DNA of 64,000 bases from Flammulina velutipes (taxonomy: Eukaryota > Basidiomycota > Agaricomycetes > Agaricales > Physalacriaceae): assembly GCA_011800155.1 (NCBI GenBank), contig CM022378.1, positions 1,302,001 through 1,366,000 of the forward strand. Direction: 5' to 3'. This document shows positions 13,501 to 27,535 of the stretch, piece by piece (the stretch's first letter is position 1; the number at the start of each line of letters is the position of its first letter). A program made the translations under genes and the position numbers. Below the pieces are notes generated by a model. It was not told the origin of the DNA, searched no databases, and saw only the letters and a program-made list of their open reading frames with translations.

Positions 13501-14095
13501 ACGTAAGCTAGCGGCGCATATTTTATTGTACTTGTGAACATTAGACTTTTTATTTCAGGGTCAAGCATCCAGATATCCAATGAGACAGCGGCGATGGGAG
13601 GCAGGTAGATAAAATGTGCATCTAAGCGAGAGTGTCGAAAGAGGAAGGACCGCGCCCCCTTCTCACACTGCCCCTGACCAGGACACCACTCCCGCCCCAG
13701 GCCACGTCACCCACTCACGCCAGAGACCACTCCACACGCAAGCTCAGGCCACCGACCGCATCCACCGCAGACGATGACTTGGATCATGTCCGCTCATGAT
13801 TCTAGTCAAACCACCTTACCTTAGTAGTCCTACAGCATCGAATCCATCATACACTGCATTGGAAACATCAAGTATCGTTTCGTTGTCATGTTCGGCTGCG
13901 CGGAACGTCATTTTGATCATACGTGGCGCGCAGTGGTTTCAGTATTTCATTCTTGTCTTCTTACCACCATCATGTCCTGACTGCGCTTGCACTATTTAGT
14001 TCCCTGGACGTCGCACAGCACCATCCTTTGCTCAACATGCACGACCCAGAAGACATGGAGAGTTCACCGTCGCTCAGCAAACGAAGTAGGACGTT

Positions 14096-14103
14096 AACGC
14101 GTC
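14096..14103 (+). repeat. target-site duplication, left copy
   Basis: AACGCGTC immediately before the element. The identical octamer at 25645-25652 follows it. Units 3-5 have a single AACGCGTC at this place, so this is a true duplication of 8 bases. Confidence 0.92.
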
Positions 14104-14130
14104 TATGGGCGGTATAGTGTTGCATAATTC
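14104..14130 (+). repeat. left terminal inverted repeat
   Basis: Pairs with 25620-25644. The match is GGCGGTA, then a two-to-three base difference, then TGTTGCATAATTC, with a 2-base offset at the extreme tip. Confidence 0.85.
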
Positions 14131-14159
14131 TAGACGGCACTTTTTTTGTTGTTTTACAT

Positions 14160-14365
14160 GATTGTATTTCACTTTATTCAAATTGATATTCACTTGTGTG
14201 AATGTGGCGTCACTTTATCAAATCAAATTTCACTTTGACAATGTCGTGCTGGCTCACTCAAATTGGCTCTCAGTTTGACAATATCTGCTTCACTTTGGCA
14301 AAAGCAGTTTCACTTTTCAAAATTGGCAAATCCACTTGGGCAATATAGCTTTTACTTTCAACCAT
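14160..14365 (+). repeat. left subterminal TCACTTT motif array
   Basis: About nine spaced copies of TTTCACTTT or one-base variants (for example near 14166, 14189, 14210, 14228, 14290, 14308, 14332, 14352), often followed by -GACAAT or -CAAAT. Arrays like this are typical transposase-binding regions of large TIR elements. Confidence 0.75.
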
Positions 14366-14398
14366 CAAGGACAAGATGTTCAAGATAGAGTTTTACAT

Positions 14399-15983
14399 TT
14401 AGATTTGAGCATCTACATAAGCACCTAGAAGTAGAGCAGCTCGACAATACACATCAATTCCCCAATTCCCGTCATCCTCTGTGAAGTCAAAATCCCCGAG
14501 CGCCTCTCGGGCCTCCTGAATATCAGCATCATCATGTAGCGCTGAGTTAGGATCTGACGGATCTACTGGAGGCACAGCCAAACCCGCGTCTTCAACACCC
14601 TCAACTCCGTACCATCCATCAACCAATGAGATATTGTCCCCGACATCCCCAGTCCAAACTCCTTGGTTCATAAGTTGCTGCCGGCTGAGCTCGTACATAG
14701 CGACTGGGCTGCGATAATGTGCCGTTCGAATCTGATGGTGGTTCCATGCATGCTTGGCTCGATTGAGGGATTCCTGTATCCGGGGCTGAAATACAAGGTA
14801 AAGCGCCAGACTTTGGATGGGATTTTCCTTCGACCAGAGCTCGTTCCTTTCCAGGTAGAGAAAAACTTGACGAAATGCCTCTAGACTGTCCTTTTGAATG
14901 TCCACCCATAGACGCTCGATGCGCACATTATGTGTGGATCTAAAAAGAGATAAGTCTTGAACATAATATAAGAATATTGTACACACCTCCCCCGAAGATA
15001 TGCTCGATGAGCATCACCCCATTTAGCCAGCATAGCCTTTTCTATCCCATTATTCTCAGTTCCAAAGTCTCCCCGTACACGACTAGGCCAACCCAGTTCC
15101 TTTGCGCCTGCCAGAAAGCACTGTAGAACAGTGTCAGATCTCTTGTTGGAACGACATTCCATGTAGACGATGAGGCGTGAGTGCCCATCAACGCATCCGT
15201 GAACCCAGAATCCCCAGTGTTTGAGCTTCTCATGACCGTCTTGATGCCATAGAGCATTGGCGCCGCGAACTTTGTAAACACGTCTCTTAGTGACATTGCG
15301 CCATCTGGAGAAAGTTTAGTATATATTGACACGTAGAAAATGTGTGCAGCGCACCTTGTCAGGACCCCAAGGATATCCACCCGTCGCAGACTATCTTGAA
15401 CTCTTTTCCGCGGTATATGAACTCCCATGGCCTCCAGATGACCCATCATAATTGCTGAGCCAATGAAAGGATGCTCCAACGATTTTTTGGCCACAATTTC
15501 GTCGAGGTCCGTGTCCGATATTTGACTGAATTCCTTCCTCTCAGGTGAGATGCCAGCGCGCTGAAGGTGTCGATAGAGGGTAGTTCTATTCACCCCGTAG
15601 GCCTCTGCTATGCTCTCCCATGAGTTTCCCAGATCATGTAAGAGACAGAGACGCTGAACATCTATGTTGAATGAGGGACGCCCAGGACGGCCTGTATATA
15701 TTCGGTGGAGGTAGGATGCAATAGGTGCTGGGGGCGTCTCTAGAAAGCGGTCTAGTTCCACGATGTGCAGGTCAACATAGTCCAGCATATGTTCCACGTC
15801 CAAATGAGCTAGATGAGGGTCGTCGAGAGAATGGAGAATGGTTCGAATGGCGTACAGTTGGTGGACAATACGTTCGACAGTAGGGACCTCAGCATTGGGA
15901 AAGGATGATATGGCGAAACGGGCTTCGTTGACAATATTATGGCTATGCGAAAGGAAGACCTGAATAGGATCGCGCGTAGTCAT
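14399..15983 (-). CDS. integrase-core (rve-like) DDE transposase
   Basis: 495 residues in three exons (15983-15355, 15304-14987, 14939-14399). Residues ~121-145 form a helix-turn-helix (ESIAEAYGVNRTTLYRHLQR) after a GRPGRP hook-like stretch. The RNase-H-like core has ANALWHQDGHEKLKHWGFW with Asp232, VRGDFGTENNGIE with Asp289 and STHNVRIERLWVDI with Glu324, a D,D34E triad. The splice joining exons 2 and 3 places RIERLW correctly after the intron. The family is the eukaryotic integrase-core group seen in basidiomycetes and some animals (IS3EU/Ginger-like by memory, not verified). All catalytic residues are present, so it may be active. The stop is ~295 bases from the left end of the element. 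It most likely cuts and joins the element's ends. Confidence 0.85.
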
Positions 15984-16260
15984 GTTGGTAGGTTGGAAAG
16001 ATTAACGGAGCTCGGGCCGTGCAGTTGACGCTCAGCGCCTACAAAAAAAAATATAAATATATGTATCAAAAAACTACAAGAACAGCTACAAGAACAGCTA
16101 CAATAACTAGCTAAACAAGAAATAAGCTAAGACAATAGGTATAATACTCTAAAAAGGCTTGAGTCGATTGACGACTAATGTCAGAATTGTACAGATATCA
16201 ATCCAAACTTTAGGCTGCGTTGCATTTCGATCTGGGTGGTAGGTCTAGATAGAGAGAATA
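15984..16260. other. spacer with short direct repeats
   Basis: 277 bases between the integrase start and the end of the next minus-strand gene. It includes three near-tandem AGCTACAAGAAC-like copies (~16072-16105) in an A-rich stretch and probably holds the integrase promoter. Confidence 0.4.
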
Positions 16261-19200
16261 TCAGCTCCCACGTTGCAAACATAGTTGGTATGATAGTACC
16301 TTCTGCGCGGCCATCCAAGCAGCCTTGTTGGTGGCTCCGTCTGTCGAGGTTTTGAATGTATCCCGTGTGTCGCGATTAGGGTGGGGGAAATCGCGTTGAA
16401 GGCGCCGGATAAGTTCTGACCATCCCAGGCCTTTGCTTTGCTCCAACTTGTGCGCCTTGGCAATACGGGGATCCTGGCGGACAGTTGATGTTGAGGGTGT
16501 TGAAGTAGGCATGGTATATGTATCGGTGTTGTCTGTGTTCCTCGGAAACATGTAACGGAAGTATGTTGCTGGAACGATATCAGTATGGGCTAAGTGATTG
16601 AGGGATGGAACACGTACCGGGAATAATAAGCTCCAGATACCACTCGGTATCGATGCCGTACGGCATTGGTTTGATATCTATGTCAGAGTCAATAAAAGAA
16701 GATGAGTAGACGAACGAAAAAACTAACTTGTGTCAGTAGGAATATCCCCGTTCACAGGCTCATAGTTCCCGGTCCTAGAGTTTAGAATAATTAGAGAGAG
16801 AGTAAGGATGGATGAAAGGGAAAGACGTACGTTGGATTGAACTTGGCGTCTTTTTCCTCAATGTCATTAGGACGGGCTTGATTGTAGAGGTTTGGATGCT
16901 AAGAGAATGATAATGAGAATAGACTAAAGAGAAACACAAAAGACATACCTGCAGGACATGACGTATCTTCCAGCCAACGCACAGAAGAAAGTCGCCGACG
17001 ACCTTCAAGATACCCTCGTACTCCCGGTTCACGGGGCGCTCTCTCACCAAGTATCTGCTGCTTGCTAGCAGCAGATCCAATCCGAACTCGCCGGTACTGA
17101 GAACATCGATCTTGAGATCTTGGGCCCGAGTGGAGGTTCCTGCAAAGGCCTGGATATGATCTTGAATACTGTCCGCTCCGATAGCGAAGGACCCCCGAAT
17201 ATCCTGCCAAATGTCTGGTACGCGTGCGGATAAAAATGGGTATGTTTTCAAAACAGGTCTGAGGCAAATGCGGATAAAAATGGGGTGAATTTTGAAAGTG
17301 GTATGGTACCAGGTGCGGATAAATTTTGGCGGCTGGGGAGGTCAGAGGCGCCGTGCGGATAAAAAAAAATTCGCACTAGCAAGCTCGGACACCGCACGGA
17401 CTCGCTAATGCCGCGTTTGATTTCGACTAATGGCACTTCGGCCGCTGTTAACTTTAGTCATCGCAGGGATGGCGCGGAGATGCCGAATTTCGGCACCTCG
17501 CCCCGTGCGCCACACTGGGGCCTGATACGGCATGCGGATAAAAATCACGGCTTCGAGAGGTATGGTACCATATGCGGATACACCTTCCTTTTTGGGATGC
17601 GGATAAGAACCTCCAACCTCGGTATCAGACATTTGGTGGGATATTCGGGGGTCCTGATAGCGACATCGCGAATCATGCGATCGAGCTTGACGAAACCAAT
17701 GTGAACGGGAGTATGGGGCGCGGCGGATCTCTGTGTTATAAGAATCAGCAGTATTCAGATATTGAATAAAAGATACTTACAATGTGATCTTCAAGAAGAC
17801 CTTGATTAACTACCACCATCGCCTCCAACTGACGGAAGCCGGACTTGGGGAACCAATGACATGGTTTGACGTTGTCGAAGAAGAAGTTGAGCAGGCAAAT
17901 GATGTCGTGGCCATAGTCAGAGAGGCGATCGTGGACCTCGACCAGGAGTGTGTAGTCGGCGTCCGACAGGTCAGCCAGTTTGGCTACTTGTTCGATCAGT
18001 GTCGACCAGGCAGTGAGAGCCTCCACAGCAGAAGTGATACCCAAATTTCCTAGACGCATGCGACGGGAATACTCTGGAATAGTGTTGGGTGTACTGCCGA
18101 GAGGGGCGCTGCTTATTGTATGAGCTAGTCTTGATAAAGGGGCCATTGCCTCAACGTAGTGGCCGGCGGAAGAAACCATTTCAGTAGCCAAGTGGGGATG
18201 TTCGCGAAGTGAACCCTTGAGGATAGTATCGAGAATGCCTTGAGCATGTCCGGTGACTGGAGGAAAGTTGGAATATGGCAGGATAGAAGAGTGTGCGTGC
18301 TAGGATGATTTAGGAAACAGTATCATTCAAGCAGAACATGACTTACCCATTTCCCACTAGCCCCGTAAGAGCTGCTGCCCCCAATGATTTTGAGAGTGTC
18401 TGGAGGTGCGTGGGTATTGACCACAAGACGCTGAGCGTCTGTGATTGATTTGGGTATTGTCAAAACCTATTAATGTTCAGCAGAATCCACAAACGCAGAA
18501 TGATACTTACACGGCGTGAAGTACTGGAGCCAACGTCTGGTGCCGTCGCTGTCTCTCTGGGCTCGGTAAGGTTGGCGGTCGGTTTGGTTTCCTCCGGGGA
18601 CTCAATGTTGATGTGGTTGCCATCGTTAGTCTTGCGACGCTTGTAGGTCCGTTTGGGAGCTGGTGAGGATGACCGCTGGAAAGATTGTTAGATGCGTATA
18701 TGACAGAGAGATATAACGCACCTTTTTTGATGTATGGCCCTCCGGTCCTTCCATATCTTGATAGTTTGACGCTAGGCATACGTAGAGACAATACTTGACA
18801 TCCGACGGCTTGACCTTCGACGGCTGGGACTTGGAGAATTGCCTGAATAAACAAGGTTTAGTATCTGGGAGTCGAGAAAACAATGCACTCACTGGCTCAG
18901 CAACTTAAAGTCCAAGGCGTCCTTTTGCAACCAATCTGTCGGCTCCAAAGCGCTGGCTGTCCCTTGTCCGCGCCTAACCAACTTCATAACATGGAAGATG
19001 GGGGTGGTGGTTGCGTCCTCCGGAGCTTCTTCCTCCTCGTCGACAATCCCGTTACCGATGATGTCTGACGAGACGTCCGCAATTGCCTTAATGATGTCCT
19101 TGCAGGTTGCAGTAGTGTTGACCTGAATTTTTCGAACCAGATTGTACTCTGGCTGGCGAAGCTCATTAAACCTAAGGCATATTCTATTAGTTATAATATG

Positions 19201-20050
19201 CAAGAATGTAGTGTAGAATACGCACATTTCCTCTGAAGGACGTCGAAGTTCTCCTTTGTGTGCTGCTGTAGTCCATGGCTGCCAGCACACAGTAACCTCC
19301 TCGACTGGAACTGAAACCTCCGCCTGCATGCTCTTCTTCTTTGCCTTTCCTTTGGGGGCGCGTCCGGTCCTGTTCTGCAGGCGCTCACTAACGATCTGAC
19401 AAGTGGTTAGGTAACAATGAAAACATGAATATAAGGTAAATCTACCTCTTTGGCCGGATCGAAGGCTCCCGTACTAGACTTGGCTTCATTGGTGCGCTCT
19501 TGGGTCCTGGCCTTGGAGGCGTCAACGAAGGCGGTTGTGCTGGCTTCCTTTTCCTTGGACTCCTTGTCCTTGTGGGCATGAGAGCCCGCCACAAAAGGTG
19601 AGGACTTAAAGTCCTTCCAGGATGTGGCCTTGTGCAAGGTGTCGGAAGTCGTGCGCGCGTTTTTGATAGTATCTGACGTGGCCCCACCAAAAGCAGCCGC
19701 GTCCACCTTGTTGGTATTTGCTGAGGCCTAATTGAGAATAGGTCAGACAGTGTATAGGGAATGAGCGTGAGGTCAAGACATACGGGGGATCTTGAAGCTA
19801 ATGATGGCTCGGGTTGAACGGAGTCCGGAACCGGCGGCTTCTGATAATCAAAAGTGAGAAATCTAAAATAGACCCAATATAGGCATGAACGCACCCTTGG
19901 GATGTGAGACGCCAGATAGCAATGGCAAATGGAGCACTTGTCAAAGGGCGTCCACTCGGACATATCCTTGCCTTCAACGTAGGCGCAACCACACTGCTGA
20001 GGGCAGTCATGTTTTTGGCAGGCGTCGAGGGTTTTGGGATCAAAAGGCAT
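16261..20050 (-). pseudogene. large cysteine-motif accessory protein of the transposon, broken by a MITE
   Basis: Minus-strand gene of about a dozen exons, roughly 800-900 residues. The N-terminus MPFDPKTLDACQKHDC has Cys/His at 11, 16, 20, 22, 39, 42, 44 and 49 in a zinc-knuckle-like layout (CX4CX3CXC..CX2CXCX4H). Next come a charged Lys/Ser-rich stretch, a folded-looking segment (FNELRQPEYNLVRKIQV), a nuclear-localisation-like PKRTYKRRK, and a helical C-terminal half ending in SKGLGWSELIRRLQRDF. I do not know the family or function; a DNA-binding partner of the integrase or dioxygenase is possible. A 468-base insertion (17188-17655) with an 8-base duplication sits inside an exon. Joining the flanks restores one frame (RMIRDV on to AIGADSIQDH), while the insertion introduces stops. 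It is therefore broken unless the insert is spliced out. Confidence 0.65.
17188..17655. mobile_element. 468-bp MITE-like element nested in an exon
   Basis: Target duplication GATAGCGA at 17180-17187 and 17656-17663. Terminal inverted repeats of ~34 bases begin AGGACCCCCGAATATCC at each end and continue with a few mismatches to GTCTGGTAC/GTCTGATAC. The interior holds seven same-strand copies of TGCGGATA (17225, 17269, 17314, 17354, 17533, 17573, 17599), several followed by AAAAAT and spaced ~40-45 bases, and two GGTATGGTACCA palindromes. There is no coding capacity, so it is non-autonomous. Its ends do not match the large element, so a different transposase moved it. Confidence 0.88.
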
Positions 20051-21864
20051 TTTGGTAGCTGGATTTTTCTGGTGGGAGTGTAAGGAAGGATGGGCAAACA
20101 GAAACGTTCTCTGGGTACACGGCTTTTATACTATCAGTACAGCGACGGGGCCAAATAGAGAGACCAAACAACTGTGGCGCGTACTCAATTATTCCAACAC
20201 CCAAATTCCTGCCCAAGATGGAATTTTTATTGTACTTTCAGCCGCTCTCATTGTTCTTCCAGTGACTTACATTATTTGTACAGTACGGTTGCTAGGTCAC
20301 ACAGCTGGCAACGGTAGACGGACGATCCTCTTAATTAAAAAAAAACTACCACAAATTGTTCTACTATTCGGGTCCCGTTGTTCTCCTATAGATCCAGAGT
20401 TAAGAAGGTTATCCTGGGGAAAGGGGTTAACGACAGGCTCCAGAAAGGAGAGAGAAAATGCTCACTTGGGAGTGCATAATTGTCCAAGTCGGTATACCGA
20501 CTAGCCGACCGCCAGGGCGGCGTTGGCCAATTTGCACGCTCTGCCGAACATGAGTTGGGGAAGAGCGTTGCCAACGAGCCGAGGTGCAGAGGCAATCTAC
20601 AAAGTCCGCGGCCCTGCCGTTAACACCCTGGCAATGTGTGTGTAAGAACTAAGACAGGTCAGTATCAGACTCTCCCAGTATACGTCAATGACTTACAGTA
20701 TTCTAAAGCGCGCGAGCCCCATCACTGAAAGAAGGACGTTGGAGGGGTGTCCATTCACTCTTACAAGTTACATCTCCCAGCTGAACGTTCCAGTCAGCAC
20801 CTAGCCGGCCGTCGGGCTCTTCGCCTATGAGCGCCGCCGTCAACCACGAACCACGCGGACACGTCATAGTAGTGCGATAGAGGTCGTTACGACCTTCAAT
20901 TCCAGAACACAGCGGCGAAGGGAGAGGTATCAGGTGGTACCGTTGTCGCATCGCGAGAGATGTGAGACATTGGATAGAGTCGGTGGTGGTCGTGCGGACG
21001 GAGCGGCCAGGACCTGATTGTCCTGTACAGACTTCAGAGTGCTGAAAAGGGCATGTATGTGGACAGACATACCTTGGTGAATTTGACGTCGAGATGTCTT
21101 GCGAGTGGCAAACACCAGTGGAAGCGATGGTGGGCCCCAATGGCAGCGTGAACTACAATTGAGAACGACAGAGACGACGCTGGTGGTGACGCTTAGAGGC
21201 GGGGGAGAAATTCTAAGCCTGAACTCTCGTCGGACGAAGGCAAGAGGGCCAAGTGAGTGACGTGTTCTCGTGGTATTTGCAAGTGGCGGCGCGACGCTGG
21301 TTGATATTGTTGTCGCGTTGAACGAGACATGTGCGTCTGAAGACGGGGTCAGGACGCGACGCTGTCGGCTGCCTGGCGAAGTCAAGTCGCGGTTCTAGAG
21401 GTGATGGGAAAGCTCCAAAAGTCCAGGCCCTTGACCACAGTCACGGGACGATACGCGCTCTGTTGATAGAGCCCGCCGAAGACCTTCGAGGCTGCGAACG
21501 CACTGCCGTAGGGCAACAGGCCGGGATGGATGGTGCGAGGAGGTACCATGACGGTGTCGCATGGTGTCGGACGCGTCGGACGTCGGTGGCGGTGATGATC
21601 AGTCCAGACGGAGAGGACCAGACAGGACACGCTCATTGAGTGGTAGAACCGGTGCGACGCGACGTTGGCAGAGAGTCAGATGGTGGAACTGGTGGAGGGG
21701 GTTGGTTAGAGCACTGAAGGGGAAGGCTGAGATATGCGGGCAGACATACGCGGATAGGTTCGTCGACACGACTACGCGACTATACGCGACTACACGATTA
21801 CGCGGCGGGCGATGTCATTGAAGGCAGCGGCGACTTCGACGGCAGATATGAGGACGGCGAAGAT

Positions 21865-21912
21865 GAGGGCGACGGTGAGGGCGGAGACGAGGGCAACGGT
21901 GAGGGCGGAGAC
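21865..21912 (+). repeat. 24-bp direct repeat, two copies
   Basis: GAGGGCGACGGTGAGGGCGG followed by AGAC at 21865, repeated at 21889 with one base changed (GCAACG). Confidence 0.6.
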
Positions 21913-21977
21913 GAGCCCATGAGGCCAGCGAAGGGACGTGAGGAGTCTGAGTGCTATAAGGGGGTTGTTGGAAGGGG

Positions 21978-22012
21978 TGTGGGAATTTCTGGAGGCTCTA
22001 GAAATTCCCACA
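21978..22012. promoter_or_regulatory. 13-bp perfect inverted repeat upstream of the dioxygenase gene
   Basis: TGTGGGAATTTCT (21978-21990), a 9-base spacer, then AGAAATTCCCACA (22000-22012). It lies 208 bases before the dioxygenase ATG and could be a regulator-binding site or a stem. There is no direct proof of function. Confidence 0.45.
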
Positions 22013-22219
22013 GTCGTTCAAGGAGCGTTGGACGGTGTGGGCAGCGATGAGCTGGGGCCAGCGTACTGAACACATGGAGGTCGACAAGAGAGAGTGTGCC
22101 GGCAAAGTCCGAATTCGGACTTGGCCTACCGATTCCGTGTTGGCTCCGCGACTGCTGGCCTCTGTTTCATCAGACTCATTACAACCTGCCTACTCATCTA
22201 GCCAGTCAACATTTCAACG

Positions 22220-25200
22220 ATGATTGACTTGGACACCTTGGATGCCGAATCTCTTGCGCAGCTCAGGACGATGCTGGACCAACACAGCAACCATTTAACA
22301 CCCGTTTGGCGAGCAGTGCATGTTGAGTTGTCCTTAAGGCAACAAGGTGCGTGATTTTGAGGTTTGGCTTTTATCAACACTAATGTCTACTTTCAATGAA
22401 GGGTTCTTACCCACTCCCAATGTAACGCCTCAAAGACCGCAACATTATCGTTCTGCTTCCGGTAAGTCCGTCCAGATTTATAAATAGAATGTTTTTGAAC
22501 CGAAAGACTTGTAGACTTCGACTACGCGATAGATGTTCCGCCGCGTCCCAGTTTTCAGACCACGGACTCCAACCAGACCTCTACCAGCCTAGCTAGCGCC
22601 ATGGCCTCCGACCCTTATGTTGAAAGCTTCTTCACGGAGTCAGCTACTACTTGTGCCAGCGCCACCATCTTCGATGATGCTGTTGAATCCTTCTTCGCGG
22701 GATCAGCCCTTTCGGACGACGACGACGATATCGACCGCGGACGCGCTGCAGACCGTCAGCCCCAAGAGAGACGAAGTAGCAGCTGTAACCGTGGCGGTGT
22801 CGTTCCTCCACCTGGAATGATACATTCGGACCACGTGCAGCAGCGTCAGCAGCAAGCACGAGAACATGACCAGGCGACGCAAGGTGGTGATGAGGCGCGC
22901 ACCTCTACCAGCCAAGCATCCAACTCACCTGCAACCCAAAATTCAACAACCACAATGACGACTGTTCCTCAATCCCATGTATTCTCCTTCACGTCTCCTA
23001 TCCAGCCCTCCCCCTACGCCAACTACAACGACCCATACTTCAGGCCCATAGACAAGACACTGATAGCTGCGGTCGCGCGCCTCTGTGGCAAGGCTAGCCG
23101 TCTTCTGTACGATGAAGCCTACACCCAGGCCTGGGATACTGATATTCAACACCTCTTTGGGACCAGTTCGTCATCATCGGGAGCAGGAGTATCTGAAGAT
23201 ATCACATCGACACTAGCCGGACTTGGGAATGCGTGTCTCGAAGCTCACCGGGATGAGGATCACGCCAAATTTGTCGGAGTCCTAGCGTCGCTTTCCTTAG
23301 CAGCCAAGGTACAGGCTTTGATGGAAAAGTAAGTGAATTCCTACTTACCCATTTCAAGTACTGACTTGTGCCAGAGACAACGTTACTTCTTTGCAGAGAG
23401 TATGGGAAGTATATGTGCTTCCCCTCAACCCAGGCTACAGTTTCAGCAAATGGGAGAGGTGGTTTGTGAAAGGCAAACGATGGGCTCTGGTTGGACAGGC
23501 TGGGGGGATTTATCTGGTTCTTCTCATAATCTTCGCGCGGGAGACCTCAACGTTTGAAAACGTTAACGTGTCTCACATGGTGAATATGGGCTATCACATT
23601 CGGGCTCCCCGTCCAGGTATGTTTCGTTTACCTCTCGCTCGTCTCTTACCTGATTCGCAATATCCAGGCCTCTCATTAACAAGACTCTTTGCTTCAACCT
23701 TGGCGCCCTCCATCAAGCTCCTTCAAGACACCTTCCCTGTGGATTCGTGCCGCCTCTTCGACAACGAGACTCTCAGGGTGATGAAAGTTGGTTCAAATGT
23801 TCGGCTGGAGGATTGGGTATCATCTGATACCTTCTTCAAAGCTTTCAAAACCAAGTACGTTCCATTTGTCTAATCTATATTTATCTGATTGACCTATAGC
23901 ACATTTCATCTTCCTTCGCGCGACTTGACATTCTGGGCACGCGGCACCATCGTCAGCCCAGTATATACTTCTCTTTCCCTGGGCTCCCTTCTTCCCTCAC
24001 ACGATAATGTTGATAATGCTGATTCAACATTGTCGCAGGAGCTTGAGGACCCGACAATTGAAGCAACGAGTCAGACATATTGGACGGATGTTCTTGATGC
24101 GCTGGCAAAGGTTAAGGGCAAGGAGCACTTGAAGGTCAAGACAGGCTTCAAACCGGATCACCCGCGAAACAAGTTCAAGCTTCGGGCCCCGACTCGGAAG
24201 AAGACTTTGGAGTTCACGAAGGCTGAGCGTGCTCTTGCCGAATGCGCTTACGTTCCCAAGGATTTCAAGGATTTTTCGAATCGCGTAAGTCATCTGTATC
24301 GTTATTTTTATTGCTGGTGATCACGTCTCCAGTTGGCGTCACAATTGGCTCCGGGATATCGAGAGGAGCCATCTCACTATGTTCTCTTGGATCGCACTGT
24401 CATCATGGCCAAGTAAGGACCTGTCGTCTCTCCGGAACACCATGATCTAACCTCCTTGGAGTGACCCAAACAAGTTCGCACATATTGGGGGCCATGATGG
24501 ATTGCCTTTTGCGATCTCTCTGCCCCCGGCACCTAAGGAGTATGCTGATATTATTATTCCCATAGTTGAGGAGATTTTCCCCTCCATTCTCCGAACGCGT
24601 GACTCCGACGACGGTCATCGCTTCTTTGTACTACATCATACGTTCTATAACCGGTCTGCAACCAGAGTAAGTCTTCTTGTTTGTTTCAAATACAGTGTGC
24701 GGACTTCTCAACTGGACCAGGGCACAGATGCACCTTCATCTGGTGATCCCTGGAAGCACGGGAAAAATGGAAAAAAACGAATCGATCCCTCTCAATGTCT
24801 CCCTCGACTATCTACTGAAGGTCAAGATGAGCGCTTGGAGACTCTGAAGAAAGCGCTCCAAGGACTCATGGATTGGCTGACAGCTCAGGTATGCTTAGCG
24901 TTGTTTTATTGACTCTCTTCTCATCATCTCTCTAGCTACTCGTTCTATTAAAGGAACACTACACTGTCCTCGATGCATACATCACTGTTCTCCCCGGACC
25001 TTCGGCGCCCGCCGTCTACCCTTTCGGAGGCATGGTCCTCAACTTCAACGTCTCTACTTTAGCTCACCGGGATCACGGCGACAAACGCATCTGTCTCGTC
25101 CTCGCCGCTCAAGATGGGGAGGGAGGAGACATCGTTCTGTATGAGCCTGGGCTAGTTGTGCGTATGTATACAGGACATTCCCTGGTTTTCCGCTCGTGTG

Positions 25201-25328
25201 ATATTACACACTTCAACTTGCCGTACAAGGGCAAGCGCATCTCATTTGTTTTTCATAGCGACCATGACGGAACAGCGTGGGTAGACAACCGCAATGGCTG
25301 GAAGACTAAAGAATACTTTTCCGGTTAA
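22220..25328 (+). CDS. TET/JBP-like 2-oxoglutarate/Fe(II) dioxygenase on the transposon
   Basis: About ten exons encoding roughly 890 residues, starting MIDLDTLDAESLAQLR. The N-terminal ~300 residues are low-complexity and acidic/Gln-rich (two PYVESFF/AVESFFAGSA-like motifs, SDDDDDIDRG). The middle part is folded (VWEVYVLPLNPGYSFSKW). The C-terminal double-stranded beta-helix keeps the full metal and cosubstrate set: HRD (His 25065, Asp 25071), the distal His in DITHFN (25209) and the Arg of GKRISFVFHSD (25236), with the GGDIVLYEPG strand between. This pattern is that of the fungal TET/JBP family, which oxidises 5-methylcytosine in DNA. The gene ends ~316 bases from the right end of the element, facing outward. 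Exon joins (for example 23330/23374 and 23617/23669) keep frame. Another 2OG oxygenase subfamily is the main alternative. Confidence 0.78.
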
Positions 25329-25384
25329 TTGTAATTAAATATCATTGTGGCGCTAGTGGCGCAAATATCTCTAGTGACGGATTT

Positions 25385-25605
25385 GTGAACTCAGTATCAA
25401 ATTACTGAAGTAAAACCTTAGATTGAATAGTGAAAGTCAAACTGGAAAAGTGAATCCTTGAAACCTCAAAGTGAATTGTAATTTCCGGAAGTGAATCCGG
25501 ATTTCTGTGGAGTACAAGTGTGTTTTCAAAGCTAAATCTGATTTGAGTAAGTGAGAAGAGGCGGAGACAAAGTGAAATAGCATTTGAGAAAGTGCGCAAA
25601 ACACT
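25385..25605 (-). repeat. right subterminal TCACTTT motif array
   Basis: About nine AAAGTGAA/AAGTGA motifs (for example 25421, 25446, 25471, 25489, 25549, 25570, 25588). They are the reverse complement of the left-end motifs, so the two ends are mirror images. Confidence 0.75.
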
Positions 25606-25619
25606 CAGAACGAAGTGCT

Positions 25620-25644
25620 GAATTATGCAACAGTATTACCGCCA
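25620..25644 (-). repeat. right terminal inverted repeat
   Basis: GAATTATGCAACAG then TATTACCGCCA, the inverted partner of 14104-14130. Confidence 0.85.
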
Positions 25645-25652
25645 AACGCGTC
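25645..25652 (+). repeat. target-site duplication, right copy
   Basis: AACGCGTC, identical to 14096-14103. It is followed directly by the continuation of the zinc-cluster exon (CACGCGCTTGCGATTTATGC). Confidence 0.92.
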
Positions 25653-27535
25653 CACGCGCTTGCGATTTATGCAGACAGAAAAAGAGTGCGTCGTCGTCGT
25701 GCAGGACAGTGTTGCCGACCACTGATCATCATCGCAGTCAGATGTACGCTTTCATGCAATCGTGGTGTTCAGCTCACGAAATTACTTCCAGGTGAAGGCA
25801 GCGAGACATCAGGCGAATGCGCGTACTGCCACAAGGCTGGTACACAGTGCAAATACACTAATGAAGTCGTCCGAGTGCGTTGCACCACCTCCGATCGATA
25901 TCCGAGTTGTTGACGGAAATCTAGAAACGCACACCGACCAAGAATTCAAAGGCTTACATCGAATCGTTGGAAGAACGCCTGGCGAATATGGAGAAGATGT
26001 TGACACAGGTGCGTTTCTGCGACTCATCTAGCTCTCGTCCTCATCGTCTGCAGGTCAGGCGCGAGGCCAGGGGCAAGGCAGATATATACAATGACATGGA
26101 TATGCCCAACTCGATGAGCTCTGATTCCGACCCCGATGATGCTTTCGCCTCCCCGAGGACAAACTCCCCCGTACCCTCCACCGTTTTGCCAGTCAGTCTT
26201 CCCAGCCCCGACGACAAAGCCGACATAACATCCCAAGACGTCAAACATGACTTGACTACAGTAGACTTGGCCGGGGGCATGAAGTACCTGGGAATGGGAA
26301 ACGACGTGCGCTTCTATGGCAGAGCCAGCGCTCCAGCCTTGGTCCATCGAGCTTTCGACTTTCGCCGTCGTATTCGTGGAGACAACCTCGAAACGTATGA
26401 ATATCTACTATCTATAGCCGATGTGACAAGGAAATCGCTATGGCAGATGTTTCCTGTATGTGATCTCTCTATCTCGTTGCCCTGACTCAAGCGCTATCTA
26501 GTGGGAAACAGCCGTCGATACTAGGCCCAAGAAAGACGCCACCGATTACTCTTTCCCGGAACCTGACCTCCTGGAGTGTCTCATTGATCTATACTTCAAG
26601 AACGTCAATCTATTTTTGCCTTTGCTCCATCGACCGACGTTCGAGAAATCAGTCTGGGAGGACCGGCTACATGAAAAGGATGACGACTTTGGTGGTATAG
26701 TTCTACTTGTATGTGCCATCGGCTCGCGGTTCTCGGACGACTCGAGGGTGACGATGGATAGCGCAGGAAAGCATCCGTACTCTTCTGGATGGAGCTGGTT
26801 CATCCAGGTCAAACCTATCCAGATGACTATAATGATGCGGCCATTGCTTTATGATTTGCAAAAATGTACAGTGCGTATCTTTCACCTTGATTCTGATCAC
26901 TAATAATGTCTTCCTAGTTGTCTGTCATCTATATGCAAGGTTGTTCGCCTCCCCGTGCGTCGTGGACGATGCTCGGTACCGGGATTCGCTCAAGACTACG
27001 AACGGTGTTCACCGCCGAGCGGAAGCACATGTTTATGAATCCGAGCAAGCTGAACACGAGGCGAGTGTTCTGTTTCTCTCGTGCGTCCGATACTGACTGC
27101 AACGAGGACGCCGTCGCCAAGTGCCGTCGATTCAGCTTGCGCGCTGTCGGTCGTGAAAAACGTCGAATTTCATTATTAGACCTCTGGATACAAAGTACAT
27201 AGACTGTAGTAAACTACGCTAATGATAATTCCATGTTCCTTCTCAAAGCTGCGTCGTTGAGTCAAAGTCTATTGAATGGTTAGATTGAGTTTGCTGCGAC
27301 GCATACGTACCCAAGAGCATGCACCAAGGCCATCTCGCCATCGGCGAGAAGCCAGCCACAGGCTGGTGTTGGTCTTGGCTGCGTGCGATCCTAAAAGTCG
27401 AAAGATGTACAAGACGAGCAACGCGTAGCTATTCACTAGCACGATTGGCGAGAAAACAAGTCAAAAACCCGTACACTATGAGACGAGTATGAGCTTACCT
27501 TTGCATTGTCGAAGCCGTTCCGCACGCTTCGTCAC

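Follow-up and report, generated by a model that had tools for sequence, protein, structure and literature searches.

A three-gene DNA transposon of Flammulina velutipes with a TET/JBP-like dioxygenase

Why should a mushroom transposon hold, next to the transposase that would move it, a gene resembling those for enzymes that oxidise 5-methylcytosine (5mC) in DNA, and do the two travel together? The question is raised by a stretch of 64,000 nucleotides (the window: C13:1302001-1366000 in the 38.1-Mb, 23-contig genome of Flammulina velutipes; positions within the element are window coordinates), in which a sequence-only reading had placed a transposon combining an integrase-like transposase with a dioxygenase. 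The 11.5-kb element is real. The overall explanation that we consider likely is that it is a cut-and-paste DNA transposon of the IS3EU/GingerRoot type and moves as a unit of three genes: the transposase, a second gene overlooked in the sequence-only reading (here gene 2), and a putative 5mC-oxidising dioxygenase.

The borders follow from a comparison of nine elements in this genome: the window copy on contig C13, two further full copies on C5 and C8, five short elements, and one diverged full element, termed family B to distinguish it from the rest (family A). All nine, in both families, begin with TATGG and end with CCAAA. An exact target duplication of 6 bp flanks eight of them, including all five short ones; the 8 bp proposed for the window copy has to be replaced by the six bases CGCGTC. 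The left end of the span first given (14104-25644, 11,541 bp) stands, and the right end moves out by two bases, to 25646 and a total of 11,543 bp, because the two extra A are element sequence in 9/9 cases. The idea of a single bounded transposon with imperfect inverted ends holds: the terminal inverted repeats (TIRs) share a 17-bp core at 94% identity, the imperfect core measures 27 bp, and gapped local matches span 51-60 columns at 70-79% identity. A 30-mer from the right end finds nine genome sites at up to three mismatches, against none for the reversed control; eight are the family-A elements, and the ninth (C8:158362) is a lone end. This lone right end (C8:158258-158391) differs from the 30-mer at one position; the search for left ends gave no partner close to it, and it was excluded from the set of nine.

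Motif arrays mirror one another inside the ends, as had also been described. The leftmost 320 bp of the window copy contain 7 ACTTT units and the rightmost 320 bp 5 AAAGT units, compared with 0.26 and 0.38 per 320 bp in the interior; the left/right counts are 6/6 in the C5 copy, 6/7 in the C8 copy and 12/9 in family B. The favoured form of the unit varies: 8 of the 12 left units in family B read TTACTTT, and TCACTTT accounts for 5 of 7 in the window copy and just 2 of 6 in each of the C5 and C8 copies.

Table 1. Coordinates of the transposon, its parts and its full relatives (window positions unless a contig is named)
Feature	Position	Strand	Basis or detail
Complete TIR transposon (C13 copy, family A)	14104-25646 (11,543 bp)	.	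borders via nine-element comparison
Left target-site duplication, CGCGTC, 6 bp	14098-14103	.	nine-element comparison
Right target-site duplication, CGCGTC, 6 bp	25647-25652	.	nine-element comparison
Left TIR, TATGGGCGGTA...TTGCATAATTC	14104-14130	+	inverted-repeat listing, nine-element comparison
Right TIR, GAATTATGCAACAGTATTACCGCCAAA	25620-25646	-	inverted-repeat listing, nine-element comparison
Left subterminal region, 7 ACTTT units	14104-14423	+	motif count
Right subterminal region, 5 AAAGT units, mirrors left	25327-25646	-	motif count
Transposase, 495 amino acids (aa), rva_4 integrase core	14399-15983	-	exons 15983-15355, 15304-14987, 14939-14402, stop TAA
Gene 2, 890 aa, 14 modelled exons (C5, C8 copies), Cys-rich N terminus	16261-20050	-	spliced models
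Nested 468-bp miniature inverted-repeat transposable element (MITE), 34-bp TIRs	17188-17655 (17180-17663 with 8-bp duplication GATAGCGA)	.	absent from C5, C8
Region between divergent genes, fastest diverging part	20051-22219	.	C13 vs C5/C8 55-82% identity, four 500-bp bins from 20104
TET/JBP-like 2-oxoglutarate (2OG)-Fe(II) dioxygenase, 886 aa, 10 exons	22220-25328	+	spliced model; H800, D802, H848, R857
Full family-A copy	C5:1094360-1105313	minus	genome search
Full family-A copy	C8:1185951-1197206	plus	genome search
Diverged family B element	C13:1247276-1258586	minus	transposase 73% aa identity

The spliced transposase matches the integrase-core family rva_4 (PF24764) in Pfam at an expectation value (E) of 4e-60, and the family rve as well; upstream of the core lie weak helix-turn-helix (HTH) matches, none above its own cut-off. 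Int_N is matched too, at E 0.1. No model of the KDZ group (Kyakuja, Dileera, Zisupton) matched it in Pfam up to E 1. The two proposals made earlier for this protein, an integrase core with a D,D34E triad and membership in a DDE family other than KDZ, thus both survive. The triad comprises D232 (the presumptive first Asp), D289 and E324, with 34 residues separating the last two. When 50 of the 105 homologues found at E 0.001 were aligned with families A and B, these residues were kept in 49/51, 51/52 and 42/44 of the aligned sequences. The named homologues come mainly from agaricomycetes, with a few from other basidiomycetes and from animals. Taking transposase and dioxygenase together, the genera named include Hymenopellis, Cylindrobasidium, Gymnopilus, Mycena and Marasmius, in keeping with an agaricomycete host.

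One argument for a single mobile unit is the constancy of its content. Transposase and dioxygenase lie between common ends in all four full elements (three of family A, one of family B), and transposase, gene 2 and dioxygenase keep the same order and orientation in each; the family B transposase is 73% identical to that of family A at the aa level. Because two families hold the three genes in one order, the dioxygenase very probably did not insert on its own; a separate insertion was what the sequence-only reading had named as a refutation, and the other copies do not show one. Genome searches with rva_4 and the dioxygenase scored the best candidates only, so that locus counts are lower bounds. 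They gave at least five matches of the dioxygenase type found in Gymnopilus (P0003), namely the three family-A copies, family B and one on contig C21, each with an rva_4 match no more than about 10 kb away; the rva_4 matches themselves number at least 30 and group into at least 17 loci. The five short elements lack all three genes (longest stop-free run at most 162 aa) and have in common a left end of 132-137 bp (76-80% identity) and a right end of 76-199 bp (70-84%). The C21 locus (C21:41392-51616) contains a distant rva_4 transposase (33% identity) and, some 9 kb from it and with the same orientation, a distant TET-like exon (42%); the dioxygenase relative is without the 2OG-binding Arg, and its exon has no Pfam match. 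It was considered as a third family and rejected, as neither matching ends nor a duplication was found.

The dioxygenase probably belongs to the TET/JBP enzymes, to judge from its residues and relatives. H800, D802, H848 and R857 are invariant across five aligned proteins; we take the first three to be the putative iron triad HxD..H, and R857 the putative 2OG-binding Arg. Residues 480-886 found three homologues among 7038 candidates scored: in Hymenopellis (49% identity), Cylindrobasidium (42%) and Gymnopilus (33%). The roles of an HxD..H iron triad and a 2OG-binding Arg are described for TET/JBP enzymes (PMC12730594). The Pfam family Tet_JBP is matched by the Gymnopilus homologue at E 1.1e-5, by the catalytic part of the family B protein at 0.0079 and by the last exon of the window gene at 0.048 (13.3 bits); in one aligned set it is matched by five of eight members, above any other family. 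Three other Tet_JBP matches occur in the host genome (on C1, C8 and C6), away from the rva_4 matches and below the Pfam cut-off (best 28.3 bits). In a profile comparison with these three, the HxD motif and the distal H align (probability 65%, P 6e-5), and two of them score 15.2 and 8.0 bits on the profile of the dioxygenase family, against at most 3.7 bits in 2000 shuffles. Equivalence of a residue to Asp337 of CcTET was tried and rejected, the ungapped offset landing on Val, and searches of NCBIfam and PHROGs gave no useful match.

The genes appear to be maintained. In spliced models, which penalise stops and permit only short GT-AG introns, none of the four transposases or four dioxygenases contains a stop. 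The family-A dioxygenases have nine introns each; the models start with ATG in the C13 and C5 copies and have an ATG at most two codons upstream in the C8 copy and family B, and all four dioxygenases end in TAA. Among family-A copies the ratio of nonsynonymous to synonymous divergence (dN/dS) is 0.04-0.10 for the transposase and 0.14-0.22 for the dioxygenase, dropping to 0.03-0.07 from residue 600 onward, the catalytic last third; for gene 2 it is 0.13, from the single pair C5 and C8.

These observations can be assembled into a scheme. The transposase would bind at the TIRs and at the ACTTT arrays that mirror each other, and it may also act in trans on the short elements. The host genome has five C5-methyltransferase domain matches above cut-off, which indicate a potential for methylation, not actual methylation. 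The TET/JBP-like dioxygenase could, with moderate confidence, be supposed to oxidise 5mC laid on the element by such methyltransferases, and with the same confidence this oxidation may help the transposon to stay expressible. Escape from silencing by an element-borne oxidase is the inference we favour. All four full elements have an observed/expected ratio of CpG dinucleotides of 0.91-0.93, and the rest of the window one of 1.09.

Several results weigh against this explanation, in one or another of its parts. The C5 copy is the sole element of nine without a target duplication, and the right end, AA in place of the TA of IS3EU, departs from the type to which the element is assigned. Among the matches listed, 12 of the 17 rva_4 loci have no Gymnopilus-type dioxygenase match nearby. 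The TET/JBP assignment, first made from the HRD..H..R residues, draws on a motif set that is indeed invariant and gains less from Pfam: no dioxygenase of the group exceeds the Tet_JBP cut-off of 34.9 bits (best 25.1, Gymnopilus); the window protein, spliced and at full length, hits nothing in Pfam up to E 5; the Hymenopellis homologue (P0001) matches none, and that of Cylindrobasidium (P0002) only PH_alsin, at 0.16; and the three rows of a Tet_JBP search across the genome all fall outside these elements. Sequence and profile searches of the PDB with the dioxygenase returned no TET structure, nor did PDB searches with the three host Tet_JBP matches, and the AlphaFold models were unusable, the predicted local distance difference test (pLDDT) score being 35 for the full-length Gymnopilus homologue and 42 for the last exon of the window gene. 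A Foldseek search with the latter model gave no match at E 0.001; the cupredoxin-like chains that it listed at E 0.05 or worse were disregarded. When the three full family-A copies are compared over their left 5.8 kb, C-to-T changes are 3.1 times as frequent per site at CpG (45 changes at 538 sites) as at other C/G (55 at 2027). The five short elements give a ratio of 1.4, and seven copies of the nested MITE one of 0.27 (1 change at 66 sites vs 10 at 176). All these numbers are small, the sets being compared are unequally diverged, and only a majority rule gives the direction of change. At face value this spectrum suggests that the element is methylated at times: such methylation would supply the enzyme with a 5mC substrate, yet the raised CpG transitions speak against full shielding from methylation. 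Finally, in Laccaria bicolor, genes high in 5-hydroxymethylcytosine (5hmC) and 5-formylcytosine (5fC) are mostly silenced (PMC8889193).

Where does the element stand among known transposons? Kojima 2025 reported TET genes in 11 DNA-transposon lineages, DDE types other than KDZ included (PMC12730594). TET-bearing IS3EU elements are described there from seven Pucciniales (rusts), with 6-bp duplications and TAYGG..CCRTA ends, and as one family from the truffle Tuber indicum; for Agaricomycotina the carriers named are Kyakuja, Zisupton, EnSpm, Plavaka and Helitron2, and the part of the text covered lists no IS3EU host among agaricomycetes (PMC12730594). IS3EU itself has been annotated in Ganoderma (PMC8955403), and the HHCC motif is absent from both IS3EU and GingerRoot (PMC10045372). 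Placed by such described features, the present element fits IS3EU/GingerRoot best: it has 6-bp duplications in common with IS3EU, as well as a TATGG left end that agrees with the TAYGG consensus, and it likewise holds a third gene besides those for a DDE transposase and a TET/JBP-like protein. It differs in its host, an agaricomycete instead of rusts and Tuber indicum; in its ends, TA..AA instead of TA..TA; in its third gene, which has no alpha-kinase match whereas TET-bearing IS3EU has an alpha-kinase gene; and in gene order, the middle gene here being gene 2 and in IS3EU the TET gene, with the transposase and alpha-kinase genes on either side of it. IS3EU TIRs are described as longer than 30 bp, and the observations here, an imperfect core of 27 bp and gapped matches of 51-60 columns, fall on both sides of that length. 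The dioxygenase has HxD where Kojima's PE type, found in Pezizomycetes and Agaricales, has HxE, and this argues against that type. TET-bearing KDZ elements resemble it as basidiomycete DNA transposons with a TET/JBP gene; the rva_4 integrase-core and HTH transposase sets it apart from them, as does the duplication of 6 bp instead of 7 (Kyakuja) or 8 (Dileera, Zisupton). The plant Vandal elements (MuDR), with a sequence-specific anti-silencing protein (cited in PMC12730594), offer a likeness in that they too have an anti-silencing gene of their own, as is proposed here; their transposase is of another class and no methyl oxidation is involved, and the parallel would be one of function.

One alternative to this placement sets the element apart from IS3EU proper, in an unnamed superfamily of its own that neighbours IS3EU/GingerRoot. 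In IS3EU the termini of complete families are invariably TA..TA and the duplications usually 6 bp (PMC10045372), and nine of nine elements in two families here have TA..AA; gene 2 stands in place of the alpha-kinase, and the gene order differs. The 6-bp duplication and the TATGG start are nevertheless held in common with IS3EU, and a change of a single base at one terminus counts for little. We regard a separate superfamily as possible and rather unlikely.

A second alternative accepts the TET-like core of the 2OG-Fe(II) oxygenase and gives it another substrate (RNA, protein, N6-methyladenine (6mA) or thymine), the gene having been acquired for a purpose other than 5mC. The weak Pfam scores, the failure of the genome-wide Tet_JBP search to reach these elements and the want of structural confirmation, in low-pLDDT models and a null Foldseek search, all favour it; so does the action of CcTET on 6mA as well (PMC12730594), and one member of the aligned set also matches 2OG-FeII_Oxy_3, at E 0.0084. 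Against it stand the predominance of Tet_JBP over any other family in that same set, and the alignment of the motifs with those of the three host matches. On this evidence we think another substrate unlikely.

A third alternative keeps the TET activity and reverses its effect: the enzyme marks instead of rescuing, oxidised methylcytosine quieting the copies and so limiting self-damage, a form of autoregulation. The silencing of genes high in 5hmC and 5fC in Laccaria bicolor fits, and the authors of that study propose oxidation as an added route of suppression, with possible autoregulation of transposon-associated TET genes (PMC8889193); the elevated CpG transitions in the element fit as well. 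In Coprinopsis, however, higher 5hmC with low 5mC marks the more active genes (PMC8889193), and a gene for self-silencing would hardly be kept under purifying selection as strong as that on the catalytic third, unless self-limitation pays. We hold this reversal to be doubtful.

The copies look like mosaics. Synonymous divergence (dS) is 0.03-0.10 for the transposase and rises to 0.53-0.79 over dioxygenase residues 1-330. The closest pair of copies, scored in 1-kb bins, changes along the element: C5 and C8 from 14.1 kb (29 sites vs 0 and 3), C13 and C5 from 22.1 kb (191 vs 52 and 55), C13 and C8 from 23.1 kb (88 vs 32 and 27). We read the switching as recombination between copies. That the dioxygenase block is a separate insertion within the transposon, as the far greater divergence of the middle and of the dioxygenase N terminus than of the transposase end might suggest, is very improbable, since block position and orientation are constant across the four full elements of two families, none of the 25 longest inverted-repeat pairs, out of 69 listed, flanks the block, and the switches in pairing are what inter-copy recombination would produce. 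Within the middle region, at about 20464-20538, a stretch of 50-75 bp has many genome matches (84-90%), five of them about 11.6 kb apart on C7; it is perhaps a further repeat.

Gene 2 is an unfamiliar member of the three-gene unit. It is open in the uninterrupted C5 and C8 copies (890 aa, 13 modelled introns); the family B version is 36% identical and has one stop in its model. Pfam assigns it to no family up to E 5, and hence not to the alpha-kinases, and no homologue appeared at E 0.001 among 7993 candidates scored. Within the genome its matches are confined to the four full elements (39 of 39 rows). After its dioxygenase part the Cylindrobasidium protein has a tail that resembles gene 2, with E 9.5e-7 against family B and 2.3e-4 against family A. 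The tail scores 21.7 bits on the gene-2 profile, where 1000 shuffles reach at most 13.1; because of this tail, gene 2 and the dioxygenase seem to be linked in Cylindrobasidium too. The Cys-rich N terminus and the strict linkage to these elements lead us to guess that gene 2 probably encodes an accessory DNA- or chromatin-binding factor. It is in any case a concrete new candidate for a partner of a transposon-borne TET enzyme.

How much of this is new? The suggestion that the TET-bearing lineage might be undescribed fares differently at two levels. The class has been described, because Kojima 2025 reported non-KDZ TET-bearing DDE transposons, IS3EU among them (PMC12730594), the only report of IS3EU and a dioxygenase together among the papers searched; neither the element's own lineage nor a closer relative appeared among the papers listed. 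Within the literature searched, what appears to be new is an IS3EU-like TET-bearing element in an agaricomycete, with TA..AA ends, gene 2, a changed gene order and a mosaic middle. It would add a host lineage and a gene arrangement to the few transposons with a methyl-oxidising enzyme, and its copies read open in one genome. One may further, and quite tentatively, picture a distinct IS3EU-like mushroom lineage defined by TA..AA, in which a fixed anti-silencing pair, the TET-like oxidase and the unrelated gene-2 protein, has its targeting N terminus and shared promoter reshuffled by recombination; if true, such reshuffling fits an arms race with host methylation. Transposon-borne TET enzymes are still counted as functionally uncharacterised in a 2026 review (PMC13297926). 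This genome contains full copies together with a diverged family and short, presumably dependent elements, so that rescue versus silencing by such an enzyme can be tested in one fungus.

Two lesser features concern insertions into genes. In the window copy, gene 2 is disrupted by the nested MITE, which has six further near-full copies in the genome at 93-96% identity and, from the length of its duplication, would be hAT-like. Outside the element, when the flanks are joined (13974-14103 and 25653-25772, one duplication kept), they form one frame, MHDPEDMESSPSLSKRSRTLTRPRACDLCRQKK, which we take, from its motif, to be the start of a Zn2Cys6 transcription-factor-like gene; the transposon insertion splits this candidate gene.

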